Of a stretch of DNA of 64,000 bases, positions 44-15,682 are shown piece after piece (the stretch's first letter is position 1; each line of letters starts with the position of its first letter). The stretch is taken from NCBI RefSeq assembly GCF_019024325.1, contig NZ_JAFNJS010000005.1, positions 124,001-188,000 on the forward strand, read 5' to 3'. The stretch comes from Falsiroseomonas tokyonensis (lineage in GTDB: Bacteria > Pseudomonadota > Alphaproteobacteria > Acetobacterales > Acetobacteraceae). The translations under genes and the position numbers were made by a program. The notes beneath the pieces are model-generated. The model saw nothing but the letters and a program-made list of their open reading frames with translations. It was not told the origin of the DNA and did not search any database.

Positions 44-1009
44 ATGATGCGCCGCCGCCCGCTGCTGCTCGCCGCCCTCGCCACGCCATTCGTCGCCCGC
101 GCCCAGGCCGCGGATCGCGTGCGGGTCGCTGTCTTCAACGTTTCCTCCGCGCTGCCCTATTACGTGGCGGCGGAGCGCGGCTTCTTCGCGGCGGAGGGAA
201 TCGAGGCCAGCGCCACGCCGCTGCAGGCGGCGCCGCTGATCGTGCAGGCCATGGTCGCCGGCGATGTCGAGGCGGCCTCGAACCTGGTGACGCTGGAAGG
301 CGCCAATATCAACAGCCGGCGCGCCAATACGGCAGTCTATATCTCCCTGAACGGCCAGAATGCCCAGTATCAGATGGAGCAGTTCGTGGTGCGCCCGGGC
401 TATCCGGCGCAGTCGCTGCGCGACCTGAAGGGCGCGCGCATCCTCTCCGCGCCCGGCCCCGCCAACCTCTCCGCGGCAAAGGCGGTGCTGGCGGCGGTGG
501 GGCTGCAGGAAGGGCGCGACTATTCGATCCAGGAACAGCAGATGGGCGTGCATGTCGGCGCCTTGGCAGCTGGCACCTTCGATGCGGCCTATACGCTGGA
601 GCCTGTCGCGACGATCGCGGAGCGCGCCGGCGCGGCGCGGCGGCTGGAGGCCGGCGTGATCGCCACCCACCTGCTCGGCCGGCCGGAGGCGCAGGCCTTC
701 GCCGCCGGTGCCGCTTTGACGGGCAAATTCCTGCAGGAAAAGCCGGATGTGGCGCGCCGCTTCGCCAATGCCTGGTCCAAGGCCTGCGCGCTGATCACCA
801 GCGACGCCGCCAGCGTGCGGCCGCTGCTGGTGCAGCACATGCAGACCTCCGCCGAGCTGGCGCCCACCGTCCCGCTGGTCGCCTTCCGCATGGTGCGCGA
901 CCTTTCGCCGCAGGACATCGCGGACTTCCAGAAATTCGTCGACCTGGCCGTGGCGCAGGGCGTGGTGCGCAGCGCGATCCCCGTCGGCAGCTTCCTGCGC
1001 GCCCTTTGA
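44..1009 (+). CDS. ABC transporter substrate-binding protein, NMT1/SsuA type
   Basis: Periplasmic binding component of an importer of the nitrate/sulfonate/taurine/pyrimidine-precursor class (321 aa). The N-terminus has two to three arginines followed by a hydrophobic stretch ending in ARAQA, a typical export signal. The mature part starts with the family pattern RVRVAVFNVSSALPYYVAAE and continues with RGFFAAEGIEA. The ATG at 44 is chosen because GAGGAG at 32-37 is a good ribosome site and the signal peptide begins there; a TTG at 26 is also in frame. The ATPase gene overlaps its stop codon and the permease follows, so this is a complete SBP-ATPase-permease importer. The substrate cannot be read from sequence; the neighbouring amidohydrolase and monooxygenase suggest a nitrogen-containing or aromatic compound. 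Confidence 0.85.
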   Translation: MMRRRPLLLAALATPFVARAQAADRVRVAVFNVSSALPYYVAAERGFFAAEGIEASATPLQAAPLIVQAMVAGDVEAASNLVTLEGANINSRRANTAVYISLNGQNAQYQMEQFVVRPGYPAQSLRDLKGARILSAPGPANLSAAKAVLAAVGLQEGRDYSIQEQQMGVHVGALAAGTFDAAYTLEPVATIAERAGAARRLEAGVIATHLLGRPEAQAFAAGAALTGKFLQEKPDVARRFANAWSKACALITSDAASVRPLLVQHMQTSAELAPTVPLVAFRMVRDLSPQDIADFQKFVDLAVAQGVVRSAIPVGSFLRAL

Positions 1010-1776
1010 GCCTGACCCCGCGCGAGACCGCCATTACCATCCGCGGCCTGCGCAAGGCCTTTGGCGGGCAGCCCGTCTATTCGGGCTTCGACCTGGATGT
1101 GAGGCGGGGTGATATCCTCGCCATCTTCGGGCCGAATGGCTGCGGCAAGTCGACGCTGATCAACATGGCTGCCGGGCTGCTGCCGCGCGATGGCGGTGAG
1201 ATCCTGTATGACGGGCGCGAAGTGTCAGAAATCCGCGTCGGCTATGTCTTCCAGAACTACCGGGAGGCGCTGTTTCCCTGGCGTCGCGCGGCCGAGAATA
1301 TCCGCTACCCCATGCGCCGCATGGGGCTGCCGGCGGCGCAGGTGGAACAGCGCCTGCAAGGCCTGGCCGAGCGTTTTCGGGTGCGCTTCGACCTGAACCG
1401 CTACCCCTACGAATTGTCCGGTGGCCAGCAGCAGCTGGTCTCCATCATGCGGGCGCTGGCGGTGGAGCCGGAAGTGCTGTTCCTGGACGAGCCCTTCTCC
1501 GCGCTGGATTTCGAAACCACGCTCTCGCTGCGCGACCTGCTGCAGCGCGTGCTGAAGGAGCTTGGCATCACCACCATCCTGGTCTCGCACGACCTGGAGG
1601 AATCCATCATCCTGGCGGACCGCCTGCTGATGCTGACGCGGCGGCCGACCACGGTGGCGGATGACGTGCCGATCGACCTGCCCTGGCCGCGGCAGGCCGA
1701 GGCGCTGGCCTCGCCGGGCTTCGTCGCGCTGAAGGCGCGCTGCCTCGACGTGTTCCAGAAGGCGGTGGCGGCATGA
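1006..1776 (+). CDS. ABC transporter ATP-binding protein, SsuB/TauB type
   Basis: Cytoplasmic ATPase (256 aa) of the importer encoded with the flanking SBP and permease. Visible motifs are Walker A GPNGCGKST near residue 42, the Q-loop VFQNYREALFPWR, the signature LSGGQQQ, Walker B VLFLDEPFSALD and the switch histidine in LVSHD. The start is a TTG overlapping the stop of the SBP gene by four bases, with no Shine-Dalgarno of its own, so translation is probably coupled to the upstream gene. Length and motifs fit the nitrate/sulfonate/bicarbonate importer family. Confidence 0.9.
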   Translation: MSLTPRETAITIRGLRKAFGGQPVYSGFDLDVRRGDILAIFGPNGCGKSTLINMAAGLLPRDGGEILYDGREVSEIRVGYVFQNYREALFPWRRAAENIRYPMRRMGLPAAQVEQRLQGLAERFRVRFDLNRYPYELSGGQQQLVSIMRALAVEPEVLFLDEPFSALDFETTLSLRDLLQRVLKELGITTILVSHDLEESIILADRLLMLTRRPTTVADDVPIDLPWPRQAEALASPGFVALKARCLDVFQKAVAA

Positions 1777-2522
1777 GGGCCCTGACCGGGCCGGCGCTGG
1801 GCGCGCTGGGCTTCGTGCTGCTGTGGCAGCTGGCCGTGCTGCTGCGGGTGGCCGACCCCATCCTGCTGCCGCCACCGGCGGAGGCCTTCGCGGAAACCTG
1901 GCGTGGCTTTGCGGACGGCACGCTGGCGCATGACACCTGGCGCACCGTGCAGCGCACGGGCCTCGCCTTCCTCATCGCCAGTGCCATCGGCGTGCCGCTG
2001 GGCGTGGCGCTGGGGGCGCAGGAGAAGCTGTATCGCGGCGTCGAATTCGTGGTGGACTTCTTCCGCTCCACCCCGGCCTCCGCCTTGTTCCCGCTGTTCC
2101 TGATCCTGTTCGGGCCGGGGGAGGGCACGAAGGTCGCGGTCGCGGCCTTTGGCGCCGCGCTGGTGATCCTGTTCAACGCGGCCTATGGCGTGATCAATGC
2201 GCGCCGCACGCGCGTTCTCGCCGCGCGCATCATGGGCGCCTCCGGACCACGCATCCTGGTGGATGTGCTGATCTGGGAGGCGCTGCCGCAGATCCTGGTC
2301 GGCATGCGCAGCGGCATCTCGCTCGCGCTGGTCATCGTGGTGGTGGCGGAGATGTTCATCGGCTCAACCGACGGCCTCGGCCATCGCGTCATCAATGCGC
2401 AGATGCTGTTCGAGAGCGGGCTGATGTATGGCGTGATCTTCGTGGCCGGCGCGCTGGGCTATGCGCTGAACCTGCTGTTCATCCTGCTGGAGAAGCGCTT
2501 CGTGCACTGGTCCGGGCGGTAG
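1773..2522 (+). CDS. ABC transporter permease, SsuC/TauC type
   Basis: Membrane component (249 aa) of the same importer. It has about six hydrophobic segments and the permease EAA-type loop, seen as EALPQILVGMRSGISLAL near residue 170. The ATG overlaps the ATPase stop as ATGA. The pair of stops at 2520-2522 and 2526-2528 leaves only three bases to the convergent monooxygenase gene, so no intrinsic terminator fits between them. Confidence 0.9.
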   Translation: MRALTGPALGALGFVLLWQLAVLLRVADPILLPPPAEAFAETWRGFADGTLAHDTWRTVQRTGLAFLIASAIGVPLGVALGAQEKLYRGVEFVVDFFRSTPASALFPLFLILFGPGEGTKVAVAAFGAALVILFNAAYGVINARRTRVLAARIMGASGPRILVDVLIWEALPQILVGMRSGISLALVIVVVAEMFIGSTDGLGHRVINAQMLFESGLMYGVIFVAGALGYALNLLFILLEKRFVHWSGR

Positions 2523-2525
2523 GGG

Positions 2526-3668
2526 TCAGTCCACCTCGATGTAGAGTTGGCGCAGGCGGTCGAGGAAGGGCGCCTCGGCCTTCTTGCGCGTGCCCGCCAC
2601 CACGTCATTGGGCGGGATCAGCGTGTCCGAGGCCTCCATCGAGAACTGCCGCACGAATTCCACCCGCGCATCCCGCGCCGCGGCGACCGCCGCCGCATCG
2701 CCGCCGGCGCGCAGGACCTTCGCTGCGACCACGCCGCATTCCACCGCCTGGGTCGCGCCCTGGCCCAGCGTCGGCACCATGGCCTGCGCCGCATCGCCGA
2801 GAAACAGCGCCCGGCCATCCAGCGCATGGCGCCGCACCGGCACGATGGCGGAGCGTGCCCAATGGATCTGTGCCACATGCCGGTCGATCTGGCCGAGCAT
2901 CCAGGCCACCGCCGCGCAGGGCGCGCCGTTAGGCGGCGTGAACAGCGCGCGCTGCGCCGCGGCGGTCTTCATCGCCTCCGGCACCTGGCCATCGGCCGGC
3001 AGGGGAAAAGTGCCGGCGATATAGACGGCACCGCCCGGCACGCGGAAGGACAGCAGGCGGGCATTGCCGTTGAACCACTGGCCGTAATCGTCATAGGGGC
3101 AGTCCGCCGCATCCGTCACCAGCAGCCGCCAGATGCAGACGCCGAGCAGGGTGGTCGGCGGCTCGCCCGCCGCCAGCGCGCGCAGCCGGCTGTAGCGGCC
3201 ATCGGCGCCGACCAGCAGGTCGAAGCCGCCATGGCGCACAAGGCCCTGATCCGTGCTGAAAACCGGCACCAGGCGGCCGGCCGCGTCTTCCTCCAACGCC
3301 TCCAGCGCATGCCCGTTGCGCGTGCAGTCTGCCACGGGGGCGCGCAGCAGGCGGTAGAGCTCGGACCAGCGGATTCGTACGCCGGGCTCCTCCGCCACAT
3401 CGCGCATGTCGAGGTCCAAGAGCCGCGTGCCGTTCGTGAGATCCACGAACCAGCGCTCCCAGGGCAATGAGGCGGCGCGCAGGGCGGCATGGCGCAGCGG
3501 CATGTGCAGCCGCAGTGCCTTCAACGCGTTCGGGCCGATGTTCAGCCCCGTCCCGGCCTCCGCCTGGTCGCCCGGCCCCACACGCTCGAAGGCCGTGATG
3601 TCGAAGCCTTCCAGCCCCTCCGCCAGCAGGCTGCCCGCGACGCCGGTGCCGATGATGCCGATCCGCAT
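2526..3668 (-). CDS. FAD-dependent monooxygenase (aromatic hydroxylase, PHBH fold)
   Basis: Single-component flavoprotein hydroxylase (380 aa) using NAD(P)H and O2. The N-terminus is a classic FAD dinucleotide fold, IGIIGTGVAGSLLAEGL; a DG motif (LLVGADGRYSRLRAL) and the second FAD motif (LFLGDAAQAMVPTLGQGA) follow. This pattern fits salicylate/6-hydroxynicotinate hydroxylases and urate hydroxylase HpxO. The ATG at 3668 is chosen because the FAD fold begins right there; an ATG at 3683 is possible and the longest open frame (3773) would add an unlikely leader. It is divergent from the ring-opening amidohydrolase with 66 bp between starts, suggesting co-regulation. Substrate unknown; an N-heterocycle or aromatic acid is likely. 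Confidence 0.8.
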   Translation of the reverse strand: MRIGIIGTGVAGSLLAEGLEGFDITAFERVGPGDQAEAGTGLNIGPNALKALRLHMPLRHAALRAASLPWERWFVDLTNGTRLLDLDMRDVAEEPGVRIRWSELYRLLRAPVADCTRNGHALEALEEDAAGRLVPVFSTDQGLVRHGGFDLLVGADGRYSRLRALAAGEPPTTLLGVCIWRLLVTDAADCPYDDYGQWFNGNARLLSFRVPGGAVYIAGTFPLPADGQVPEAMKTAAAQRALFTPPNGAPCAAVAWMLGQIDRHVAQIHWARSAIVPVRRHALDGRALFLGDAAQAMVPTLGQGATQAVECGVVAAKVLRAGGDAAAVAAARDARVEFVRQFSMEASDTLIPPNDVVAGTRKKAEAPFLDRLRQLYIEVD

Positions 3669-3734: not shown

Positions 3735-4802
3735 ATGCCCAGCCTCGCCATCCACCGCCTGCCCATGGCCCATCCGGGCGACCTTTCCGCCCTCGCTACG
3801 CTGATCGATCGCGGCGAGGTTCGCGCCGGCGACATCCGCGCGGTGATCGGCAAGACCGAGGGCAATGGCGGGCTGAACGATTTCACGCGCGGCTACTTCA
3901 CCCAGTCGCTGATGCTGCTGCTGTCACGCACGACCGGCGAGGACCCGGCCGCGCTGGCCGCACGCATCCCCTGCGTGCTGTCGGGCGGGACGGAGGGCGC
4001 GCTTTCGCCGCACTACCTCGTCTTCGCGGTGGATCGCACGGCCAGCGGCCCGCGCGGCCTGGCGCTCGGCACCGCCTTCAGCGCGCCCACGCCCGCCGCC
4101 GAGATCGGGCGGGAGGCGCAGATCGCCAGCGTGGCGCAGGCCGTGCGCGAGGCCTTGGCGGAGGCCGGGATCACCCGCGCCGAGGATGTGGTGCTGGTGC
4201 AGGTCAAGGCGCCCTGCGCCCAGGCGCCGGGGCCGGAAGCGCGCAGCACCGACCCGCGCCTGCTGATGGCCCTGTCCCGCGCCGCCGCAGCCTTCGGCGT
4301 CGGCCGCGCGCTGGGCGATATCGTCGGAGGCACGGAGGACGATCTGCTGCGCGACCTGGCGAAATTCTCCAGCCGCGCCAGCATCTCCTCCGGCATCGAG
4401 GTGACGGCGAATGAGGTGGTGGTCTTCGGCCATGCCGAGGGCTGGAATCCGGGGCTGACGGCGGGCGTGGCGCCGATGGCGGATCTGCTGGACCTGGAGG
4501 GCGTGGTCGCCGCCTTCCGTGCCGCGGGCCTGGCCGCCACACCTTCCGTCCCCGCTGCAGACCGGGCGCGCGTGCTCGGCGTGCTGGCGAAGGGGGAGCC
4601 GGAGAAATCCGGCGCGATCCGCGGCGCCCGGCACACCATGCTCGGCGATACGGACCTCGATGCGCAGCGCCATCTGCGTGGCGCGCTGGGCGCCATCGTG
4701 TCCAGCGTCGCCGGCCACGGGCAGGTCTTCGTCAGCGGCGGGGCGGAGCATCAGGGGCCGCCGGGTGGCGGCCTCGTTTGCGTCTTCGCCCGCGCCGTCT
4801 GA
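3735..4802 (+). CDS. Ring-opening amidohydrolase (cyanuric acid amidohydrolase / barbiturase family)
   Basis: Hydrolyses a cyclic amide ring: cyanuric acid to carboxybiuret (AtzD/TrzD) or barbiturate to ureidomalonate (barbiturase). The 355 aa length matches the family's three-domain architecture. Visible family signatures are VIGKTEGNGGLNDFTRGY (Lys40), CVLSGGTEGALSPHY (Ser83), SSRASISSGIEVTANEVV in the middle domain and VSGGAEHQGPPGGG near the C-terminus; the Lys/Ser pairs are the catalytic set known for this family. ATG 3735 gives the expected N-terminus; upstream in-frame sequence lies antisense to the monooxygenase. Cyanurate and barbiturate specificity cannot be separated by eye. The neighbouring molybdenum hydroxylase and deoxyribosyltransferase-like genes favour a pyrimidine (barbiturate) role. 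Confidence 0.88.
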   Translation: MPSLAIHRLPMAHPGDLSALATLIDRGEVRAGDIRAVIGKTEGNGGLNDFTRGYFTQSLMLLLSRTTGEDPAALAARIPCVLSGGTEGALSPHYLVFAVDRTASGPRGLALGTAFSAPTPAAEIGREAQIASVAQAVREALAEAGITRAEDVVLVQVKAPCAQAPGPEARSTDPRLLMALSRAAAAFGVGRALGDIVGGTEDDLLRDLAKFSSRASISSGIEVTANEVVVFGHAEGWNPGLTAGVAPMADLLDLEGVVAAFRAAGLAATPSVPAADRARVLGVLAKGEPEKSGAIRGARHTMLGDTDLDAQRHLRGALGAIVSSVAGHGQVFVSGGAEHQGPPGGGLVCVFARAV

Positions 4803-4808
4803 TCCGGT

Positions 4809-5804
4809 TCAGCGCGCCGCGTCGACCACCGCATGGGTCCAGGCGCCGGTCGGCGCGCGGGTGATCACCGGCGATTCGCCGCCGGAGGACAGCAGCGTCT
4901 GCACCGTGCGCTCATAATCCGCCGGGTCCAGGCGGCCGCCGCCGCTGGTGTCCAGCAGCTTGGCGATCTCCGCCATCATGCGGCGCTGATGCGCTTCCGT
5001 CTGCGCGCCGGAGGTGTCGTTATCCAGCACGATGGCCGCCGCCGCATCCGGGTTCTGCCGCGCCCAGTCCCAGCCCTGCATGGAGGCACGGACAAAGCGG
5101 CCCATGCGGGCGACGAAGGCGGGATCGGCCAGGCGGTTTTCCAGCACATAGAGCCCATCCTCCAGCGTCGCGACGCCCTGGTCGGCATAGCGGAAGACCG
5201 TCAGTTGGTCGGGACGGAAGCCGCCATCGATCACCTGCCAGTATTCGTTGTAGGTCATGGTGGAAACGCAATCCGCCTGGCGTTGCAGCAGCGGGTCCAC
5301 GTTGAAGCCCTGGCGCAGCACGCGCACGCCCTGCGGGGTGCCATTGGTCGGCAGGTTCAACCGCGCCATCCAGGCGAGGAAGGGGTATTCATTGCCGGAG
5401 AACCAGACGCCCAGCGTCCGGCCGCGCAGATCCGCCGGCGTGCGGATGCCGGTCTCGGCGCGGCAGGTCAGCATCAGGCCGGACTGCTTGAAGGGCTGCG
5501 CGATATTGACCAGCGGCACGCCACGCTCGCGGCTGGCGAGTGCCGCCGGCATCCACTCCACCACCACATCGGCGCGGCCGCCCGCCATCACCTGCGGCGG
5601 CGCGATGTCCGGCCCGCCGGCATTGATCCGCACATCCAGATTGGCGGCGCGGTACATGCCGCGCGCCTGGGCCACGTAGTAGCCGGCGAACTGCGCCTGG
5701 GTGACCCACTTCAATTGTAGCGTCACACGTTCCTGCGCCTGCGCCGCCGCGGCACCGGCCAGCAGGCCGATTCCCACCAGACCGCTCAGAATGCTCCGTC
5801 GCAT
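4809..5804 (-). CDS. ABC transporter substrate-binding protein, ThiY/NMT1-THI5 like
   Basis: Periplasmic binding protein (331 aa) with a signal peptide (MRRSILSGLVGIGLL, then AAAAQAQ). The mature start, TLQLKWVTQAQFAGYYVAQ, is characteristic of the NMT1/THI5 and ThiY proteins that bind formylaminopyrimidine or related small ring compounds. ATG 5804 is preceded by AGGAGA seven bases upstream. It is the last gene of a seven-gene leftward run (FAD, Fe-S and Mo subunits of a hydroxylase, ATPase, two permeases, SBP). That arrangement points to import of the compound oxidised by the hydroxylase, plausibly a pyrimidine. Exact ligand unknown. Confidence 0.85.
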   Translation of the reverse strand: MRRSILSGLVGIGLLAGAAAAQAQERVTLQLKWVTQAQFAGYYVAQARGMYRAANLDVRINAGGPDIAPPQVMAGGRADVVVEWMPAALASRERGVPLVNIAQPFKQSGLMLTCRAETGIRTPADLRGRTLGVWFSGNEYPFLAWMARLNLPTNGTPQGVRVLRQGFNVDPLLQRQADCVSTMTYNEYWQVIDGGFRPDQLTVFRYADQGVATLEDGLYVLENRLADPAFVARMGRFVRASMQGWDWARQNPDAAAAIVLDNDTSGAQTEAHQRRMMAEIAKLLDTSGGGRLDPADYERTVQTLLSSGGESPVITRAPTGAWTHAVVDAAR

Positions 5805-5821
5805 ATCGTCTCTCCTGCTTT

Positions 5822-6739
5822 TCATGGGCGGACCGAGGGGTGCCAGAAGGTGGCGGCGCGCTCGGCCAGCGCGACCAGCCCGTAGAATGCCGAACCCGCG
5901 ACCGCCGCGACAACGATTTCCGCCCAGACGAGGTCGAGGGCGAGCTTCGCGGCTTCGGTGGTGATCCGAAAGCCCATGCCCTGGGTCGGGCTGCCGAAGA
6001 ATTCGGCGACGATGGCGCCGATCAGCGCCAGCGGCGCATTGACCTTCAGCGCGGTGAAGATGAAGGGCAGCGCGGACGGCAGCTTCAGCAGCCACAGCGT
6101 CTGGCCGGGGCTGGCGGCGTAGCTGCGCATCAGGTCGCGCTCCAGCGCGCCGGCCGCGGCGAGGCCCGCCACGGTGTTCACCAGCATCGGGAAGAAGGTC
6201 ATGGCGACCACGACCGCGGCCTTCGACTGCCAGTCGAAGCCGAACCACATCACCAGGATCGGCGCGATGCCGACGACGGGCAGCGCCGCCACCAGGTTGC
6301 CCAGCGGCAGCAGGCCCCGCCGCAGGAAGGGCAGACGGTCCGCCACCAGGGCCAGCGCGAAACCCGCGCCGCAGCCGATGACGTAGCCGGAGAGCACGGC
6401 CTTCAGGAAGGTTTGCGCGAAATCGCCCCAGAGCATCGGCGCAGCCAGCCAGGCCCGCGCGGCGATGGCCGAGGGCGCCGGCAGCAGCACCATGGGCACG
6501 GAAAGGCCGAGCACCAGCACTTCCCACAGCGCGAGCACCGTGGCGCCGAAGGCAACGGGCGCGGCAAGGGCGGGCAGGCCCCGATCCGGCGCATCGCCCA
6601 GGCGCTGCACAAGCCAGGCGGCCAGCAGGGTCGTCGCGACCACGCCCATCCAGAAGCCCGTGCCGCCGGCGCCGGCATGGACGGTCGCGATCAGCGCCGC
6701 GAAACCACCGGTGACGATCAAGGCGAGCAGGCCGGTCAT
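5822..6739 (-). CDS. ABC transporter permease (second permease of the ThiX-like importer)
   Basis: Inner-membrane permease of 305 aa with two extra hydrophobic segments at the N-terminus (MTGLLALIVTGGFAALIATV) before the standard BPD_transp_1 domain. The coupling loop is visible as AAGALERDLMRSYAASPGQT, followed by LPSALPFIFTALKVNAPLAL. The ATG at 6739 overlaps the preceding permease stop as ATGA. The open frame extends further upstream, but only as a shadow of the other permease. Two different permease genes in tandem imply a heterodimeric channel. Confidence 0.88.
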   Translation of the reverse strand: MTGLLALIVTGGFAALIATVHAGAGGTGFWMGVVATTLLAAWLVQRLGDAPDRGLPALAAPVAFGATVLALWEVLVLGLSVPMVLLPAPSAIAARAWLAAPMLWGDFAQTFLKAVLSGYVIGCGAGFALALVADRLPFLRRGLLPLGNLVAALPVVGIAPILVMWFGFDWQSKAAVVVAMTFFPMLVNTVAGLAAAGALERDLMRSYAASPGQTLWLLKLPSALPFIFTALKVNAPLALIGAIVAEFFGSPTQGMGFRITTEAAKLALDLVWAEIVVAAVAGSAFYGLVALAERAATFWHPSVRP

Positions 6740-7602
6740 GCCCTGGCCCCCATGCGCCGCGCCACCAGCCGCTCCGCCGCGCCCAGCAGGCCGACCAGCG
6801 TGGCGGAGAGGATCGCGGCGGCGACCAGCGCCGCCCAGATCTGGATGGTCTGGCCGAAATAGGATCCCGCCAGCAGCCGCGCGCCGAGCCCCGCCTGCGC
6901 TCCCGCTGGCAGTTCCGCCACGATGGCGCCCACCACCGCCGCGGCCATGGCGACCTTCAACCCGGCAAACAGGAAGGGCAGGGAGGCGGGCAGGCGCAGC
7001 TTCCAGAAGACCTGCGCCTGGGTCGCGGACCAGGTGCGCATCAGGTCCCGCGCCGTGGCATCCGGCGCGCGCAGCCCCTTCACCATGCCGATGGCGATCG
7101 GGAAGAAACACAGATAGGCGGCGATGATCGCCTTGGGCAGCAGCCCCTCCAGCCCCATCGCGCCGAGTGCCACGATGACGATCGGCGCCAGCGCCAGCAC
7201 CGGCACAGCCTGGGAGGCGACGATCCAGGGCATCAGGCTGCGTTCCAGCGCGCGGATATGCACCACCGCGACGGCCAGCAGCACGCCGAAGGCCGTGCCC
7301 ATGCCGAAGCCCAGCAGCGCGGCGGAAAGCGTGACCCAGGCGTGATGCACCAGGCTGCGGCGGGAAGTGACGGGCAGCGTCGCCGTGCTGCGCCAGAGCT
7401 CGTCGAGGATCTGGTGGGGCGCCGGCAGCAGGGGGCGGGCGTGGTTCAGCGTCAGCCGCACCATCTCCATCAGCCCCGGCGTGGCACCGGCGCGCGCCTG
7501 CGTATCCGCCACCACCTGCCAGTTCATCCAGATGGCGCCGCCGTACCACAGCAGCACAAGGCCGGCGCAGATGGTCAGCACGGGCAGGATGCTTCTAGAC
7601 AT
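6736..7602 (-). CDS. ABC transporter permease (first permease of the ThiX-like importer)
   Basis: Permease of 288 aa with a hydrophobic N-terminal anchor (ILPVLTICAGLVLLWYGGA) and the BPD_transp_1 fold. The cytoplasmic loop is GLRAPDATARDLMRTWSATQ, followed by LPASLPFLFAGLKVAMAAAV. Its start overlaps the ATPase gene by eight bases and its stop overlaps the next permease by four, so the three are translationally linked. It is related to, but clearly diverged from, the permease that follows it. Confidence 0.9.
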   Translation of the reverse strand: MSRSILPVLTICAGLVLLWYGGAIWMNWQVVADTQARAGATPGLMEMVRLTLNHARPLLPAPHQILDELWRSTATLPVTSRRSLVHHAWVTLSAALLGFGMGTAFGVLLAVAVVHIRALERSLMPWIVASQAVPVLALAPIVIVALGAMGLEGLLPKAIIAAYLCFFPIAIGMVKGLRAPDATARDLMRTWSATQAQVFWKLRLPASLPFLFAGLKVAMAAAVVGAIVAELPAGAQAGLGARLLAGSYFGQTIQIWAALVAAAILSATLVGLLGAAERLVARRMGARA

Positions 7603-8377
7603 CGTAGGAATGGCCGGCGCGAAGGCCTTCGCGCACCCGTTGCGCGATGCGCAGGAATTCCGGCGTCTCCCGAATTTCCAGCGGCCGGTCGGGGCCGAGG
7701 TCGCAGTCCACGATATCCGTGATGCGCCCCGGCCGCGGCGACATCACCACGATGCGGGTGGAGAGAAAGACCGCTTCCGGAATCGAATGCGTCACGAAGA
7801 CCACCGTTTTCCGTGTCGCCGACCAGAGTTTCAGAAGCTGCTCGTTCAGATGGTCGCGCACGATCTCGTCCAGCGCACCGAAGGGCTCGTCCATCAGCAG
7901 CAGCTTGGGCTCGAAGGCCAACGCGCGGGCGATGGAGGCGCGCTGCTGCATGCCGCCCGAGAGCTGCCAGGGAAACTTGCGCTCGAAGCCTGCCAGATTG
8001 ACCAAGGCGAGCTGCGCCTTGGCTCGCGCGGCGCGTTCCTCGCGCGAAATGCCCATGATCTCCAGCGGCAGCTGGACATTGCCCAGGATGGTCCGCCAGG
8101 GCAGCAGCGCCGGCGCCTGGAAGACATAGCCATAGTCCCGCGCCAGCCGAGCCTGCTCCGGCGTCCGGCCATTCACGGCGATGCTGCCGCCGGTGGCGCG
8201 CTCCAGATCGGCGATGACCCGCAGAAGCGTGGTCTTGCCACAGCCGGAGGGGCCGATCAGCGAGATGAACTCGCCCGGCGCGATGTCCAGATTGACGTTC
8301 GACAGCGCCTGCACCGGCCCGTCGCGCGTGGTGAAGACCAGCGACAGGTCGCGGGTGGCGATGACGGGTTCAGCCAC
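7595..8377 (-). CDS. ABC transporter ATP-binding protein (ThiZ/SsuB type)
   Basis: ATPase (260 aa) energising the two neighbouring permeases. Motifs seen: Walker A LIGPSGCGKTT, Q-loop YVFQAPALLPWRT, signature LSGGMQQRASIARAL, Walker B LLLMDEPFGALD and the switch FVTHSIPEA. The GTG at 8377 is chosen because the domain begins immediately after it (VAEPVIATRDLSLVF), GGGAG lies about 12 bases upstream, and it overlaps the stop of the Mo-subunit gene by eight bases. The longer open frame to 8458 is antisense-like noise inside that gene. Confidence 0.88.
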   Translation of the reverse strand: MAEPVIATRDLSLVFTTRDGPVQALSNVNLDIAPGEFISLIGPSGCGKTTLLRVIADLERATGGSIAVNGRTPEQARLARDYGYVFQAPALLPWRTILGNVQLPLEIMGISREERAARAKAQLALVNLAGFERKFPWQLSGGMQQRASIARALAFEPKLLLMDEPFGALDEIVRDHLNEQLLKLWSATRKTVVFVTHSIPEAVFLSTRIVVMSPRPGRITDIVDCDLGPDRPLEIRETPEFLRIAQRVREGLRAGHSYDV

Positions 8378-10703
8378 GCTGCGTGATCTCCCAGAGCCGC
8401 GACGGGCCCAGTGGCATTTCGAGGATCTCGATGCCGCGTGCCGGCAGGTCCAGCGCATCCTCGATCGCCTGCGCGAAGAGCGCGCCGACGGGGATGGCGC
8501 CGGCCTCGCCCGCGCCCTTCACGCCGAGTGGGTTGAGCGGGGAGGGTGTCACGGTGTGGTCCAGTCGCATGCGCGGCACGTCCAGCGCGGTGGGGATCAG
8601 GTAGTCGGCGAGGCTGGCATTCAGCAGCTGCCCGTTCTCGTCCCAGGCGAGCTGTTCGAAGAAGGCATTGCCGATGCCCTGCGCCACGCCGCCATGGATC
8701 TGGCCGGCGAGGATCAGCGGATTGATCACCGTGCCGCAGTCATGCACCACGACATAGTCGAGGATGGTGGGGCGCAGCGTGCCGGCATCGAATTCCACGA
8801 TCATCGCATGCACGCCACTCGCCGTTGCGCCGCTGGCGGGGCCGAAATAGCTGGTGGCTTCGAGCCCCGGCTCTGTGCCGGGCGTTACGGCGCCGCGCAT
8901 GGGATTGGCCAGGCCCGCCAGCCTGCCGAGCGTGATGGCATGGTCCGGCACGCCGGCGACATGCACCTTGCCGTCGGCGAGGACCAAGTCCTCCTCCGCA
9001 CATTCGAAATGCGCCGCCGCCGTGCGCAGCACTTTCTGGCGCACCACCTTCGCCGCCTCATGCGCGGCGCTGCCGGCCACGACGGCGCCGCGGCTCGCAA
9101 AGGTGCCGACGCCCCAATAGAACTGGTCGGTATCGCCGGTGGTCACCTCCACGTCGCGCAGATCGACGCCGAGCTGCTCGGCCACCACCTGCGCGAAGGC
9201 CGTGGCGTGGCCCTGGCCCTGGCTGCCGATGCCGGTGGCCAGGCTGATCTTGCCACTGCTCTGCACCTGCACCTTTGCACCCTCATAGGGGCCGATGCCC
9301 GTTCCCTCGACATAGCAGACCAGGCCGAGACCGAGGCTGCGCCCGGCCGCGCGTGCCTCTGGTTGCACGCGCTGCACGAAATCCGCGTAGCCGATGGCGG
9401 CCAGCGCCTTGTCGAGGATCGGCTCGTAGTTGCCGCTGTCGTAGCTGAGGCGCGAAAAATCCTGGTAGATCACGCCCTGGTCGAAGGGAAAGGCATCGGT
9501 CGGGATGAAATTGCGGCGGCGGATCTCCGCGCGGTCCAGCCCCAGCTCCCGCGCCGCAAGGTCCAGCAGCCTTTCCATCACGAAGACGCCGTGCTGCCGT
9601 CCGGCGCCGCGATAGGGCGTGACCAAGGTGCGGTTGGTGAAGACGGCGGTGAAGCGGCTGTCATAGGCCGGCACCACATAGCAGCCGAGCAGCGTGCATT
9701 GGCTGTTCAGCGGCACCGTCAGCCCATATGGGTCATAGGCGCCGGTATCGTGCAGGAACACGTCCCTCACGCCGAGGATCTTTCCCTGCGCATCCAGCGC
9801 GATCTCGGCGTCGTGGATCTGGCTGCGTTCGTGGGTGGTGGCGAAGAAATGCTCCAGCCGGTCCTCGATCCATTTCACGGGGCGGCAAAGCCGCATGGCG
9901 GCCCAGGGGATCAGAACCTCCTCCGGGTAGAACATCATCATCTTCGGCCCGAAGCCGCCGCCGATATTGGGCGCGACGACGCGCACCTGCCGCTCGCTCA
10001 GGCCGAGCATGCCGGCCAGCCCGTTGCGGATGACGACGGGCGCCTGCGTCGTGTCCCAGACCGTCAGCCGATCCGCGCGCGGGTCCCATTGCGCGACCAC
10101 GCCGCGAGTCTCCATGGGGATGGAGGCGCCGCGGTCATAGGTGAAGCGGCGCTTCAGGACGAGATGCGCAGCCCGCGCCGCCGCCGCGTAGTCACCGCGC
10201 GCCTGATGCACCTCCGCCGCCACATTGGTCCCGAGATCGGCGTGGACCAGCGCGGCACCGGGCGCGAGCGCAGCCTCAAGGTCGCCCACCGCCGGCAGCG
10301 TTTCCCATTCGGCCAGGATTTCGGCGACGGCGTCCTCGGCGATATAGCGGCTTTCGGCCACCACCATGGCGACGGGCTCGCCCACATGTCGCGCCGTGTC
10401 GCGCACCAGCGGCACCTGGCAGCGCTGGTTGAAGATCATCCCCGGCACGGGCGGCGGCGGCACCAGCAGCGGGCCGGGCTGCCAGTAATCGCCGAGATCG
10501 GCCGCCGTGATCACCGCCACAACGCCCGCGCGGGCGCGCGCGGCCGAGACATCCAGCGACAGCAGATGCGCATGCGCATGCGGGCTGCGGAAGAAGGCGA
10601 CGTGCAGCAGCCCGGGCAGCTCCACATCGTCGACGAACAGCGCCTCCCCACGCAGCAGGCGCGGATCCTCGTTGCGGGTCAGCGGGCGACCGAAACTGTT
10701 CAT
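8370..10703 (-). CDS. Molybdopterin-binding large subunit of a xanthine dehydrogenase/CoxL-family hydroxylase
   Basis: Catalytic subunit (777 aa) that binds the molybdenum-pterin cofactor and hydroxylates a carbon next to ring nitrogen or an aldehyde. Visible: the N-terminal family start RPLTRNEDPRLLRGEALFVD, the MoCo region GGGFGPKM, the loop TPYRGAGRQHGVFVMERLLD and, near the C-terminus, GVKGAGEAGAIPVG with the conserved active-site glutamate. The loop reads YRGAGR, not the AYRCSFR of true form-I CO dehydrogenase, so CO oxidation is unlikely. ATG 10703 overlaps the Fe-S subunit stop as ATGA. With the barbiturase-like enzyme nearby, a uracil/thymine-dehydrogenase-type reaction is attractive, but xanthine, nicotinate or other heterocycles remain possible. 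Confidence 0.88.
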   Translation of the reverse strand: MNSFGRPLTRNEDPRLLRGEALFVDDVELPGLLHVAFFRSPHAHAHLLSLDVSAARARAGVVAVITAADLGDYWQPGPLLVPPPPVPGMIFNQRCQVPLVRDTARHVGEPVAMVVAESRYIAEDAVAEILAEWETLPAVGDLEAALAPGAALVHADLGTNVAAEVHQARGDYAAAARAAHLVLKRRFTYDRGASIPMETRGVVAQWDPRADRLTVWDTTQAPVVIRNGLAGMLGLSERQVRVVAPNIGGGFGPKMMMFYPEEVLIPWAAMRLCRPVKWIEDRLEHFFATTHERSQIHDAEIALDAQGKILGVRDVFLHDTGAYDPYGLTVPLNSQCTLLGCYVVPAYDSRFTAVFTNRTLVTPYRGAGRQHGVFVMERLLDLAARELGLDRAEIRRRNFIPTDAFPFDQGVIYQDFSRLSYDSGNYEPILDKALAAIGYADFVQRVQPEARAAGRSLGLGLVCYVEGTGIGPYEGAKVQVQSSGKISLATGIGSQGQGHATAFAQVVAEQLGVDLRDVEVTTGDTDQFYWGVGTFASRGAVVAGSAAHEAAKVVRQKVLRTAAAHFECAEEDLVLADGKVHVAGVPDHAITLGRLAGLANPMRGAVTPGTEPGLEATSYFGPASGATASGVHAMIVEFDAGTLRPTILDYVVVHDCGTVINPLILAGQIHGGVAQGIGNAFFEQLAWDENGQLLNASLADYLIPTALDVPRMRLDHTVTPSPLNPLGVKGAGEAGAIPVGALFAQAIEDALDLPARGIEILEMPLGPSRLWEITQRG

Positions 10704-11158
10704 GCCTGGCTTGCCAACAAGACGGCGTCGACGATGTGCTGGTAGCCCGTGCAGCGGCACAGGTTGCCGGACAGCGCCTCCCGCACCTGCGCCTCATCCG
10801 GCTTCGGGTTTTCTTCCAGGAAGGCTGTCATGGTCATCAGGATGCCGGGCGTGCAGTAGCCGCATTGCAGGCCATGCGCGTCCCGAAAGGCCTGTTGCAG
10901 CGGGTTGAGCTGGCCGGGGCCGGGGGCCAGGCCTTCCACCGTGCGGATCTCATGCCCCTCGGCCTGCACCGCGAAGGCGAGGCAGGACCGCACCGGCGCA
11001 CCGTCCCACAGAATGGTGCAGGCGCCGCAGACGCCGTGCTCGCAGCCGACATGCGTGCCGGTCAGGCCGATCTCGTGCCGCAGGAAGTCGCTGAGCAGCA
11101 GGCGCGGCTCCACCTCGCGCGTGTGCTCCACGCCATTCACCCGGATGGTGAACTTCAT
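10700..11158 (-). CDS. 2Fe-2S small subunit of the molybdenum hydroxylase
   Basis: Electron-transfer subunit (152 aa) carrying two [2Fe-2S] clusters. The plant-type cluster cysteines are in GCEHGVCGACTILWDG plus the Cys of VRSCLAFAVQ. The second, C-terminal cluster uses CGYCTPG and NLCRCTGYQHI. Length matches CoxS/IorA-type subunits. The start overlaps the FAD-subunit stop (ATGA) and the stop overlaps the large-subunit start (ATGA), giving the medium-small-large order common in this family. Confidence 0.93.
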   Translation of the reverse strand: MKFTIRVNGVEHTREVEPRLLLSDFLRHEIGLTGTHVGCEHGVCGACTILWDGAPVRSCLAFAVQAEGHEIRTVEGLAPGPGQLNPLQQAFRDAHGLQCGYCTPGILMTMTAFLEENPKPDEAQVREALSGNLCRCTGYQHIVDAVLLASQA

Positions 11159-12024
11159 GCCGCGCGCTCCGCTGCCAGGGCCAGGGCGCGCGGTACCAGC
11201 ACGCCGGCCAGGTGCCGCTGATAGGCGGGCGAGGCCTGCACGCTGCCCATCGGGTCGATCTCCGCCACCGCCAGCGCCGCGGCGGCCGCGAAATCCTCCG
11301 CGGTGAGCCGCGTGCCGACCAGGCTGGCCGCCGCGCGCTCCGCCAGCATCGGCGTCGGCCCCGCGCTGCACAGCGCCAGCCGCGCCGCCACGCAGCGCCC
11401 CTCCGGCCCGCGCCGCAGCACGGCCGCCACGCCCATCATCGCATAGTCGCCCCGCCGGCGCGCCACTTCCAGAAAGCCCGTGCCGGTGCCGGGGGGCAAA
11501 GCGGGGATCTGGATTTCCGCAAGCATCTCCTCCTCGGCCAAGGCTGTGGCGAGGGGGCCGAGGAAGAAGTCCCGCGCGGGCAGCACCCGTTCCCCATCGT
11601 GCCGGCACAGGCGAAAACGCGCCTCCAGCGCCAGCATCACCGCGGGCATCTCGCTCGCCGGGTCGGCGTGGCACAGATTGCCGGCCAGGGTGCCGCGGTT
11701 GCGGATCTGCGGATGCGCCACCTCGGCCAGCGCCTCCACCAGCAGCGGCAGGCGGCGCGCCACCTCGGCATCGCGCTCGATCCGCCGATAGCGGCACATG
11801 GCGCCGACCCGCAGCGTGCCCTCCGCGTCGAAGGCCAGCGAATCCAGCGCCGCGACACGGTTCAGGTCCACCAGAACCGCCGGCTGCGCCACGCGAAAAT
11901 TCATCGCCGGCACCAGGGACTGCCCGCCGGCCAGGAATTGCGCCTCCCCGCCATGCTGGGCCTTCAGCGCCAATGCGGCGGCCAGGTCCTCCGGCGCATG
12001 CCAGGCGAAGGGGGCCGGCTTCAA
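11155..12024 (-). CDS. FAD-binding medium subunit of the molybdenum hydroxylase
   Basis: CoxM-like flavoprotein subunit (289 aa) that passes electrons from the Fe-S subunit to the acceptor. FAD contacts are visible as QFLAGGQSLVPAMNFRVAQP and, later, IRNRGTLAGNLCHADPASEMP. I place the start at a TTG (12024): the protein then begins (M)KPAPFAWHAPEDLAAALAL exactly where family members begin, and TGAGGAT sits six bases upstream. A five-codon open frame starting at an ATG at 12038 ends across this TTG. It is the first gene of the leftward seven-gene hydroxylase/importer operon. Confidence 0.88.
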   Translation of the reverse strand: MKPAPFAWHAPEDLAAALALKAQHGGEAQFLAGGQSLVPAMNFRVAQPAVLVDLNRVAALDSLAFDAEGTLRVGAMCRYRRIERDAEVARRLPLLVEALAEVAHPQIRNRGTLAGNLCHADPASEMPAVMLALEARFRLCRHDGERVLPARDFFLGPLATALAEEEMLAEIQIPALPPGTGTGFLEVARRRGDYAMMGVAAVLRRGPEGRCVAARLALCSAGPTPMLAERAAASLVGTRLTAEDFAAAAALAVAEIDPMGSVQASPAYQRHLAGVLVPRALALAAERAA

Positions 12025-12161
12025 ATCGATATCCTCATGCGCCGAACCTGCCAGAAGCGGCCGGTGGCGGGCCAGAGCCCATTTCGCGCGCCGCGGCGCC
12101 GGGCGCGCGCCGATTGCCCGCGGCTTGCACAGGCTGCGCGCCGCGTGGTCAGCTTGCCGCC

Positions 12162-12722
12162 ATGCCCCTTGCATACCTTGCCGGCCCGGATGTCTTCCTG
12201 CCCGACGCCCCGGCGCAGGCGGCCCGCAAGACCGCCATCTGCGCCCGCCACGGCATCACCGCCCTGCCGCCGCTGAACGAGGATGTGGCCTCCCTGGCCA
12301 GCATGCCGGAGGCCGAGGCCTGGCGGGTGATCTTCGCCAAGGACCTGGCGATGATGGCGCGGGCGGAGCTGGTCATCGCCAATCTCACTCCTTTCCGCGG
12401 CGCCTCCGCCGATGCCGGCACGCTGGTGGAGCTTGGCTGGTTCCTCGGCCGCGGCCTGCCGATCTTCGCCTATTCCAACAGCGCCACGCCCTTCGTGGCC
12501 CGCAGCACGGCGCAGACGGCGGCGGTTCCGGACCCGATGCCGGGGCTGACGGTGGGTGGCTTCGGCCTGCCGGACAATCTGATGATCCCGGGCGCGGTGG
12601 AGCAGGGCGGCGGCCTGCCCATCTTCCTGCCCCCAGGCGGCGCCGACCTGCCCTTCGATTCGCTGGAGGTCTTCAGCCTTTGCGTGGCCGCCGCCGCTTC
12701 GCGCCTGCGGCCTGCGGGCTAG
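12162..12722 (+). CDS. Nucleoside 2-deoxyribosyltransferase-like protein
   Basis: Enzyme of the NDT family (186 aa), which transfers deoxyribose between bases or hydrolyses (deoxy)nucleotides. The start MPLAYLAGPDVFLPDA matches the family's N-terminal strand and loop. The catalytic-region pattern IANLTPFRGASADAGTLVEL contains the usual Asp and nucleophilic Glu positions. Length is near the family norm. It is divergent from the molybdenum-hydroxylase operon (137 bp between starts) and would supply free pyrimidine or purine bases, consistent with a base-degradation module. Its 3' end overlaps the convergent MarR gene by 50 bases. Confidence 0.83.
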   Translation: MPLAYLAGPDVFLPDAPAQAARKTAICARHGITALPPLNEDVASLASMPEAEAWRVIFAKDLAMMARAELVIANLTPFRGASADAGTLVELGWFLGRGLPIFAYSNSATPFVARSTAQTAAVPDPMPGLTVGGFGLPDNLMIPGAVEQGGGLPIFLPPGGADLPFDSLEVFSLCVAAAASRLRPAG

Positions 12723-13353: not shown

Positions 13354-14595
13354 TCAATCGTCCTTCGGCGCCACCTGGTGATGCAGCGCGACCTCTCGGC
13401 CCTCGCGGGCGGATTGCAGGATGGCGAGGCAGACCTCCAGCGTGGCCATGCCCCAGGCGCCGTCATGCAGCGGCGGGGCGCCATCCAGCACGGCGGCACA
13501 AAGCTCGTCCAGCACTTCGCCGCGCGGCACCGCAGGCAGGGGGGTCTTGCGCAGCAGGCGGGAGGTGTCGCCATGGATCTCCACCCCCTGCGCGGTCAGC
13601 CGCAGATCGGCGCGCTCGCAGCTGGCGATCACCAGGCCGAACTGGTTGTGGAAGCGGGGTGGGGCGGCCGGCGGCAGGCCGGGGGGCTGGCCCGGGGCGC
13701 CGTAGGCGCGGGTGGTCTTCAGCGCCGCCTCGGCGGCCGCATCGGGCAGGCCGGCCAGCGCGGCGCGGGCCGCGCCGTGGCGGGTGGGGTCCTTGGGCTG
13801 GCCCATCTCCCCCACCCAGTCGAGAAAGACGTCGCTGTCGAAGCGGCCATAGCCGGAATAGGTCAGGCTGGCGGCGCAGCCATTCTCGAAGCTAAGCAGG
13901 GCGGCATAGGCACCCTCGGTCGGCCGCGTCGGGTCCCAGGCGCCGGTTGCGGCGCGGACGGAGCGGACCAGCCCACCGCCGAGCAGCCGCACGACATCCA
14001 CCTGATGCGCCCCCTGGCTGAAGACCACGCCGCCGCCCTGGGCGGTATCCAGCTCCTCCGGCCTGCGGGGGCGATACAGGAAGTCGGTGTAGTTCAGCGT
14101 GGAGATCATCCGCACCGCGCCGAATTCGCCGCCCGTGATCATGCGCCGCGCGGCCAGCACCGGCCCATCCTGGCCATGGCTATGGCCCAGCAGCAGGCGG
14201 ATACCGGCGGAGCGGGCGCGTTCCACCATGGAAGCGGCCTCGGCCAGCGTCACGGCCAGCGGCTTTTCCACCAGCACATGCTTGCCCGCATCCGCCGCCC
14301 GCGCCACCTGGGCCGCGTGGAACTGGTGCGGCGTGGCGAGGTAGATGGCCTCCACCTGCTTGTCCTCGCACATCTCGCCGAAATCGGCATAGGCGGGCGC
14401 GTCGAAATCCGCGGTGAAGCGGATGCGTGCCTCCGGCCGCGGATCGGCGCAGGCCACCAGCTGGATGCGGGGATGATGCGCCAGGCTCGGCAGCATCAGC
14501 ATGAAGGCGCGGCCGAGGCCGGCGACGCCGAGCCGCAGCCGCCGCGGCGCCGCGGGCGGCCGCAGGTCCAGCTCCGGCGCGGCCTCTCGCGTCAC
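13354..14595 (-). CDS. Gfo/Idh/MocA oxidoreductase, probable phthalate 4,5-cis-dihydrodiol dehydrogenase
   Basis: NAD(P)-dependent dehydrogenase (413 aa) with a Rossmann start RLRLGVAGLGRAFMLMLPSL and the family's catalytic-region motif HVLVEKPLAVTLAEA. Phthalate 4,5-dihydrodiol dehydrogenases (Pht4/OphB) belong to this otherwise sugar-oriented superfamily. Here the gene is flanked by a matching reductase and lies next to phthalate oxygenase and dihydroxyphthalate decarboxylase genes, so that role is well supported by context. The product would be 4,5-dihydroxyphthalate. The start overlaps the reductase stop by four bases (ATGA). Confidence 0.82.
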   Translation of the reverse strand: MTREAAPELDLRPPAAPRRLRLGVAGLGRAFMLMLPSLAHHPRIQLVACADPRPEARIRFTADFDAPAYADFGEMCEDKQVEAIYLATPHQFHAAQVARAADAGKHVLVEKPLAVTLAEAASMVERARSAGIRLLLGHSHGQDGPVLAARRMITGGEFGAVRMISTLNYTDFLYRPRRPEELDTAQGGGVVFSQGAHQVDVVRLLGGGLVRSVRAATGAWDPTRPTEGAYAALLSFENGCAASLTYSGYGRFDSDVFLDWVGEMGQPKDPTRHGAARAALAGLPDAAAEAALKTTRAYGAPGQPPGLPPAAPPRFHNQFGLVIASCERADLRLTAQGVEIHGDTSRLLRKTPLPAVPRGEVLDELCAAVLDGAPPLHDGAWGMATLEVCLAILQSAREGREVALHHQVAPKDD

Positions 14596-15548
14596 AGGTC
14601 GAGCACCAGGGTCGGACAGCCCGGCGCGGCGCGGGATACGCAGGGCATGATCGCCATGGCCTTCTCATGCTCCATCAGCACCAGGTCGCGATGATCCACC
14701 TCGCCCGAGACGAGCCCGGTGCGGCAGGACCCGCAGGTGCCGCTTTCGCAGGAGAATGGCACGGCATGGCCCGCCGCGTGCAGCGCTGACAGCAGAGTGG
14801 TGCCCGCCGGCACGGTGAGTTCAACGCCGGACCGCACCAGCCGCGCCGTGAAGGGCTGGTCGTCCGGCCGATTCTGGCCGGCACCCGCGCCGAAATCCTC
14901 GAAATGCACGGCCGCCGAGGACCAGTGGCCGGTCATGTCGCGCACCGCCTGCATCAGCCCGCGCGGCCCGCAGCAATGGATGTGCCGCCCCTTCGGCTGT
15001 TCCAGCAGCGGCCAGAGGTCGAAGGCGCGGTCGGGGTCGCCGCCATCATGGTGGATCGTCACCTTGCCGCGGAAGGCCTGCAGCTCCTCGCGGAAGGCGG
15101 TCTGGGCGGCGGAGCGGGTGAGATAGACCAGCTTCCAGGGCGGCCCGCCCTCCGCCTCCAGCTGCCGGATCATCGCCATGATCGGCGTGATGCCGATGCC
15201 GCCGGCGATGAACAGCCGCGCCACGGGCCGGCCCACCAGCGGGAAGTCGTTGCGCGGCGCGGAGCAGGGCAGCAGGTCGCCCGCCCTCACCTGGTCACAC
15301 AGCGCGACGGATCCCCCCCGCCCCGCCGCATCCCGCTTCACTGCGATGGAATAGAAGGCGGTCTCGGCCGGGTCGGAACAGAGCGAATAGCGCCGATCCT
15401 CGCCGCCCGGTCCACGCACCCAGATATGGGCGCCGGCGGTGAAGGCGGGCAGCGGCTGCCCCGCCGGATGCGCCAGCTCGAAGCCGAAGATCTCCTCCGC
15501 GATCGGGCGGGCGGCGAGGACGCGCAGATCGGTGAAGCTCTCTTCCAT
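14592..15548 (-). CDS. Phthalate 4,5-dioxygenase reductase component
   Basis: NADH-dependent electron donor (318 aa) for the Rieske oxygenase. Layout: an FMN/NAD(P)-binding ferredoxin-reductase part (RRYSLCSDPAET, then LFIAGGIGITPIMAMIRQLE) followed by a C-terminal plant-type [2Fe-2S] domain with CESGTCGSCRTG and a later Cys in IMPCVSRA. This order (flavin, NAD, C-terminal ferredoxin) is that of class IA reductases such as phthalate dioxygenase reductase and VanB. The ATG at 15548 faces the oxygenase gene across a 134-bp divergent promoter region. Confidence 0.88.
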   Translation of the reverse strand: MEESFTDLRVLAARPIAEEIFGFELAHPAGQPLPAFTAGAHIWVRGPGGEDRRYSLCSDPAETAFYSIAVKRDAAGRGGSVALCDQVRAGDLLPCSAPRNDFPLVGRPVARLFIAGGIGITPIMAMIRQLEAEGGPPWKLVYLTRSAAQTAFREELQAFRGKVTIHHDGGDPDRAFDLWPLLEQPKGRHIHCCGPRGLMQAVRDMTGHWSSAAVHFEDFGAGAGQNRPDDQPFTARLVRSGVELTVPAGTTLLSALHAAGHAVPFSCESGTCGSCRTGLVSGEVDHRDLVLMEHEKAMAIMPCVSRAAPGCPTLVLDL

Positions 15549-15579
15549 CCAGGCAGTCCCTTTGCATTGCGGGAGATAC

Positions 15580-15591
15580 TTAGATAGCTAA
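15580..15591. promoter_or_regulatory. Operator-like inverted repeat TTAG-N4-CTAA (site 1)
   Basis: TTAGATAGCTAA is a perfect 4+4 inverted repeat with a four-base spacer, 32 bases upstream of the reductase start. It lies inside the probable leftward promoter, whose TTGAAG -35-like hexamer is at 15605-15600. The same arm sequence and spacing recur 62 bases away. AT-rich repeats of this kind stand out in this GC-rich sequence, and a MarR protein encoded in the operon is the natural candidate to bind them. Function is inferred. Confidence 0.6.
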
Positions 15592-15640
15592 CCAAAATCC
15601 TTCAACCACCGCTGGACAGCGCTGCGCCGCGCCCGCATAT

Positions 15641-15654
15641 CTTAGCCTTCTAAG
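15641..15654. promoter_or_regulatory. Operator-like inverted repeat CTTAG-N4-CTAAG (site 2)
   Basis: CTTAGCCTTCTAAG is a perfect 5+5 inverted repeat with a four-base spacer, 29 bases upstream of the oxygenase ATG. It shares the core TTAG-N4-CTAA with the repeat at 15580-15591. The centres are 62 bases apart, close to six helical turns, so proteins bound at both would face the same side. A TGGACA hexamer at 15613-15618 could be the rightward -35, which would put this repeat at or just after the -10 and transcription start. Confidence 0.62.
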
Positions 15655-15682
15655 CATATCGGCCGCATCGGGAGGGATCGCC

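Follow-up and report, generated by a model that had tools for sequence, protein, structure and literature searches.

A gene module in Falsiroseomonas tokyonensis that pairs a distinct ring-opening amidohydrolase with a flavin-dependent monooxygenase, probably for the degradation of an N-heteroaromatic ring

Enzymes of the AtzD/barbiturase fold form what has been called a minor family (PMC4051656), and two substrates are known for it, cyanurate and barbiturate. According to Peat et al. (PMC3758960), the specificity positions AtzD 195, 321, 325, 345 and 346 read R, T, R, G, G in cyanuric acid hydrolases and N, H, K, V, S/A in barbiturases, and groups IV and V as given there carry Met/Thr and Gly/Arg/Trp at position 321, with Gln in neither. 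The atzDGEHF operon of Pseudomonas sp. ADP combines ring opening with an amidase and AtzH, and clusters of Bordetella and Achromobacter, as described in PMC6219798, combine atzG-atzE/atzH with a monooxygenase and a flavin mononucleotide (FMN) reductase. Here we analysed a 64,000-nucleotide window of the 6.16 Mb genome of Falsiroseomonas tokyonensis (contig NZ_JAFNJS010000005.1, positions 124,001 to 188,000; all coordinates below are those of the window), in which a member of this family is encoded at 3735-4802. An earlier note on this DNA had read positions 3735 to 12,722 as an oxidative pyrimidine or N-heterocycle degradation module. The amidohydrolase falls in a separate branch of the cyanuric-acid/barbiturate enzyme family that seems not to have been characterised (hereafter Q-type, with Gln at AtzD position 321), and its gene recurs beside a gene for a flavin adenine dinucleotide (FAD)-dependent aromatic monooxygenase (FMO). 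We lean towards a module for the uptake and degradation of an oxidised N-heteroaromatic ring, probably of the pyrimidine (ureide) type, in which a molybdenum (Mo) hydroxylase would act first, then the FMO, and then hydrolytic opening. We would describe such a module as a variant of hydrolytic N-heterocycle opening that is coupled to an oxygenase.

The amidohydrolase matches PF09663 with 354.8 bits, keeps all three Ser/Lys dyads and the three Arg residues, and is the product of the only PF09663 gene in the genome. Its closest relatives are found in Falsiroseomonas and Roseomonas (86% to a Falsiroseomonas metagenome-assembled genome). Alignment positions were anchored on the key residues published for the Azorhizobium cyanuric acid hydrolase 4NQ3 (Lys40, Arg52, Ser79, Lys156, Arg188, Ser226, Lys285, Thr310, Arg314 and Ser333; PMC4051656), all of which match its sequence. 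At the five specificity positions the window protein has R182, Q311, R315, G335 and G336. Four of the five agree with the cyanuric acid hydrolase signature, the exception being Gln for Thr, and none agrees with that of the barbiturases, so that calling the protein a barbiturase, as in the route of the earlier note, is not supported. Val345 was proposed to give barbiturase a hydrophobic surface linked to specificity (Peat et al., PMC3758960); Gly at this position would, in our view, suit a ring with a polar group there.

The route suggested earlier, in which the Mo hydroxylase would convert uracil to barbiturate and the 3735-4802 protein would act as a barbiturase yielding ureidomalonate, draws on the shared fold family, on a barbiturase alignment of 207 bits, on a ThiY-like binding protein and on the presence of a urease in the genome. 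We give this route little chance, because five cyanuric acid hydrolase sequences score above the barbiturase in the same phmmer search (232-254 bits), none of the barbiturase signature residues is present, and the conserved FMO is left without a place.

A maximum-likelihood tree with 72 rows, including AtzD and 4NQ3 and no barbiturase (Bar) sequence, places the Q-type proteins in one group of 49 rows with support of 100/100, although the program warned of long branches and some rows may be misplaced. The window protein falls within this clade, which stands clear of both AtzD and 4NQ3. Gln occupies the AtzD-321 position in 49 of 49 rows of this clade, where the cyanuric acid hydrolases have Thr. 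That the protein is nonetheless a cyanuric acid hydrolase would accord with its signature residues and with its score against the NF052395 cyanuric acid amidohydrolase equivalog model (378.5 bits, cut-off 360). However, this model does not discriminate: it passes six of the seven Q-type proteins tested (L014 is short by 0.5 bits), but also both E-type proteins and the group-IV-like protein of L086. Automatic labels of "cyanuric acid amidohydrolase" based on NF052395 are therefore unsafe for these proteins, and given the Gln, the separate clade and the gene neighbourhoods described below, we regard this assignment as very unlikely.

The clade may itself be heterogeneous. A sub-branch (L014, L017 and L024) has Val in place of Arg188 and a shorter loop, and therefore the substrates may vary within the clade. 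Proteins with Glu at 321 form a separate group of five in the same tree (100/100), and such a paralogue stands in the same cluster as a Q-type copy in L033, L039, L041 and L042. In L083 the Glu321 paralogue has no FMO with it and is accompanied by an amidase and an importer of the PnrA-like (Bmp) kind. A family member with Ser at 321 on a Polaromonas plasmid (L070) has genes annotated as dihydropyrimidinase and ureidoglycolate lyase nearby.

We compared 72 loci: 55 from GTDB genomes retrieved with the window protein as bait, 16 with canonical or distant family members, taken from plasmids and from an unbaited PF09663 search (13 of 398), and the window's own locus (L073). With six partial-copy loci excluded, the counts cover 49 loci with a full-length Q-type gene (48 fetched plus the window) and 17 with other types only. 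A gene counted as present at 38% identity across half of the query, or 50% in the case of ATPases, and because flank lengths vary among loci the neighbour counts are lower bounds. The FMO is found at 45 of the 49 Q-type loci and at none of the 17 others. In L041 it lies 5 kb away. Two of the four Q-type loci without it are on contigs shorter than 4.5 kb (L012 and L015), and the other two (L016 and L018) have room for the gene but none was found.

Among the 44 loci with a single Q-type copy, we detected the VOC gene at 35, importer 1 at 29, an amidase at 24, LysR at 16, the Mo hydroxylase at 14, an AtzH-like gene at 12, the binding protein of importer 2 (SBP2) at 10, a nucleoside deoxyribosyltransferase (NDT)-like gene at 7 and AtzF at one. 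Neither AtzE nor AtzG was found at any of the 44 at the main cut-off, which for AtzG weighs little as the protein is short; a looser cut-off gave one AtzE-like gene, 7 kb away in L032. The presence of the FMO instead of AtzE and AtzG argues against cyanurate breakdown of the known kind, but the absence of AtzE is weak evidence since the gene is also rare among T-type loci (3 of 15). Comamonadaceae loci typically run from LysR through amidohydrolase, amidase, FMO and VOC to importer 1, often with an AtzH-like gene, all on one strand and with gaps mostly below 140 bases.

The Q-type enzymes thus share with AtzD, TrzD and CAH (PF09663) the fold, the three dyads, the three Arg residues and the R,-,R,G,G pattern, and differ in the Gln at 321, the separate clade, and the FMO, VOC and importers that replace atzG-E-H-F. 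With barbiturase they share the fold family and possibly a pyrimidine context, and differ at all five specificity residues. The logic of the atzDGEHF operon (ring opening, amidase, AtzH-like enzyme) recurs in the 12 relatives with an AtzH-like gene, most of which also have the amidase, whereas AtzE, AtzG and AtzF are missing from these and an oxygenase is added. An AtzH homologue beside a monooxygenase is also what PMC6219798 describes for Bordetella and Achromobacter, but by that description those clusters carry atzG, atzE and the FMN reductase. A literature search over titles and abstract openings, which does not establish absence from print, returned nothing on an FMO-linked member of the amidohydrolase family.

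Pfam gave no match for the FMO at E 0.001, and its NCBIfam matches all stayed below threshold, but it has clear relatives among PDB structures. Structurally, the urate 5-hydroxylase HpxO is among the closest, and Arg204 and Tyr216 of the FMO (numbered from the ATG at 3668) align with HpxO Arg204 and HpxO position 216. This Arg is invariant in all 26 FMO sequences; in HpxO it has a role in substrate binding, and an R204Q structure exists among the PDB entries. Identity between the FMO and HpxO is about 20%, and the FMO scores 57.3 bits against the HpxO model NF033623, well below its cut-off of 500. The closest profile is instead that of NicC, the 6-hydroxynicotinate 3-monooxygenase, whose substrate residues are His211 and Tyr215 (PMC9304392). 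These are not kept: His211 is replaced by Arg in 26 of 26 sequences, and Tyr215 by Phe in 21 (the remaining 5 have Tyr).

The NicC profile raises the alternative of a pyridine pathway, in which the Mo hydroxylase, together with an FMO of NicC-like type, would produce a trihydroxypyridine or glutarimide-like ring, to be opened by the amidohydrolase and processed by the amidase. Ring opening followed by an amidase is described for HxnM/HxnN in Aspergillus nicotinate catabolism (PMC9304392), the amidase is present at 24 of 44 loci, and the best solved relative of the Mo hydroxylase large subunit is quinoline 2-oxidoreductase. We consider a pyridine pathway unlikely, given that the FMO has an invariant Arg, as in HpxO, where NicC has His211, that the amidohydrolase keeps three carbonyl pockets, and that part of the loci carry the ureide genes AtzH and AtzF.

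All the genes named by the earlier note were recovered where it had placed them, using profile searches and start choice. Its boundary of 3735-12722 was too narrow, as it overlooked the FMO, importer 1 and the VOC gene. The features of the module are as follows.

-479 to 33, plus strand: VOC (glyoxalase-fold) gene, of which only the 3' end (1-33) is inside the window; overlaps the next gene
26-1009 (start at 26 or 44), plus strand: SBP1, NMT1-like binding protein of importer 1 (PF09084/PF13379)
1006-1776, plus strand: ATPase of importer 1
1773-2522, plus strand: permease of importer 1
2526-3668, minus strand: FMO (relatives in PDB)
3735-4802, plus strand: Q-type ring-opening amidohydrolase of the AtzD/barbiturase fold family (assigned by PF09663, tree and signature)
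4665-4667, plus strand: Gln311 codon of the amidohydrolase, replacing Thr310 of the Azorhizobium enzyme (AtzD 321)
4809-5804, minus strand: SBP2, ThiY/NMT1-type binding protein of importer 2
5822-6739, minus strand: permease a of importer 2 (PF00528)
6736-7602, minus strand: permease b of importer 2 (PF00528)
7595-8377, minus strand: ATPase of importer 2 (PF00005)
8370-10703, minus strand: Mo hydroxylase large subunit
10700-11158, minus strand: Mo hydroxylase 2Fe-2S subunit (PF01799/PF00111)
11155-12024, minus strand: Mo hydroxylase FAD subunit (PF00941/PF03450); TTG start at 12024 picked by eye, ATG at 12174 possible
12162-12722, plus strand: NDT-like N-glycosidase (PF05014, 108 bits), divergent from the Mo hydroxylase operon

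The seven leftward genes from SBP2 to the FAD subunit form one operon, as had been claimed: with the chosen starts, neighbouring genes overlap by 4 to 8 bases at five junctions and are separated by 17 bases at the sixth. The FMO starts 66 bases from the amidohydrolase start, on the opposite strand. The Mo enzyme carries MoCoBD_1/2, Ald_Xan_dh_C, 2Fe-2S and FAD subunits and belongs to the xanthine-oxidase family. Oxidation of CO or of an aldehyde was considered as its reaction; the score for aerobic CO dehydrogenase (914.1 bits) is under the NF040766 cut-off of 950, but a different substrate is conceivable.

The linkage of Mo hydroxylase, importer and ring-opening amidohydrolase is real. Bradyrhizobium loci begin with the FAD, FeS and Mo subunits, followed by amidohydrolase, FMO and VOC, with an amidase after the VOC gene in four of seven loci and importer 2 divergent in three. 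Because the Mo hydroxylase and the amidohydrolase occur together in two different gene orders, Falsiroseomonas-type and Bradyrhizobium, the association is more than chance.

We also searched one set of 397 genomes, all from the family to which the window belongs, for all three proteins. The amidohydrolase was detected in 23 genomes, 20 with full-length copies (at least 61% identity) and three with partial copies (G679, G481 and G514), all taken as Q-type by identity and not by reading the residue in each. The FMO is present in 46 genomes (at least 58% identity), including 22 of these 23; the exception is G481, which is 84% complete. The Mo hydroxylase was detected in 14 genomes (E cut-off 1e-250, at least 73% identity), and every one of them has the amidohydrolase, although in G679 and G481 the copy is partial. 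Fisher tests on these counts take no account of kinship, and the 14 genomes represent three genera only. The Bradyrhizobium arrangement is independent support for the link. In G408 and G587 the Mo hydroxylase and a non-fragment amidohydrolase are on different contigs.

From the observed gene content, conservation, clade, residues and co-occurrence we infer an order of steps and a type of ring. The two ATP-binding cassette (ABC) importers would take up the ring compound, the Mo hydroxylase would add oxygen beside a ring nitrogen, and the FMO would hydroxylate an electron-rich ring carbon, by analogy with HpxO at C5 of urate. The Q-type amidohydrolase would then open the resulting trioxo ring, with a Ser/Lys dyad attacking a carbonyl held by three Arg pockets. 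If the assignment made for the Azorhizobium enzyme is right, the attacking dyad would be Ser218/Lys158; the pair preferred by Peat et al. is that of the first domain (PMC3758960). In many relatives the amidase, and in some the AtzH-like enzyme, would complete ureide breakdown. This partly explains the step that the earlier note had found missing, though the window has no amidase. Genes of the ureide pathway, which some relatives carry, speak for a pyrimidine-like ring, and our guess for the substrate of the opening step is a 5-hydroxybarbiturate-like compound.

The clade's own pocket residue and its association with an oxygenase point to a third, possibly natural, substrate of the fold and to a catabolic route. 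In its most specific form, which we put forward as a doubtful but possible extension, the Q321 clade would add a third class of substrate to the AtzD/barbiturase fold by opening a ring first C5-hydroxylated by an HpxO-like monooxygenase (5-hydroxybarbiturate or a 5-substituted relative, for example from thymine). Alpha-, Beta- and Gammaproteobacteria would then have an oxidative pyrimidine route that has so far gone undescribed.

The accessory proteins are less informative. The solved structure closest to SBP2 is 3ix1, which binds formyl-aminopyrimidine (60 bits), and SBP1 has one weak PDB match, 3qsl (30 bits); neither similarity singles out a ligand. In the VOC protein, the presumed metal ligands H16, H64, H87 and E133 are invariant across 15 aligned homologues. 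Its predicted model (predicted local distance difference test score 79.5) superposes about equally well on many VOC proteins, with Z reaching 11.4 (root-mean-square deviation 2.5, 114 aligned), and so points to no single reaction. The NDT-like gene stands beside the Mo hydroxylase operon only in loci of the Falsiroseomonas/Roseomonas type (the single-copy loci counted above, plus L011 and partial L048), and its role in the module is therefore uncertain.

The FMO also occurs without the Q-type enzyme in 24 family genomes, and we examined 13 such stretches from 12 of them. In an FMO tree, for which the program warned of long branches so that rows may be misplaced, these FMOs are interspersed with Acetobacteraceae/Roseomonadaceae rows that have the amidohydrolase, and that of L101 is almost identical to that of L013. 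FMO, VOC and importer 1 are kept together in three of the 13 stretches (L097, L098 and L101). L013 and L101 have another, distant Mo hydroxylase at the locus, which looks like a replacement in the same role. In L097 an Amidohydro_2 gene (9286-10149) stands beside the FMO in the place of the ring-opening amidohydrolase, an arrangement that did not recur among the other loci searched. In L099, L103, L104 and L106 luciferase-like genes lie close to the FMO. Three of these stretches (L099, L103 and L106) also have CofC-like and FO-synthase-like genes of F420 biosynthesis there, which seemed unrelated to the module.

Adjoining the module, the window encodes a Gfo/Idh oxidoreductase, a ferredoxin-type reductase and a LigXa-like Rieske oxygenase (13354-16996); VanA-like Rieske genes are also near the module in L023 and L040. 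The urease reported at about 30 kb is borne out for its alpha subunit, which we located at 43605-45302 (967 bits), about 31 kb from the module. An allophanate hydrolase match at 59419-60998 (537 bits over a cut-off of 511) has an internal stop and continues in another frame, representing a split gene, a frameshift or a sequencing error.

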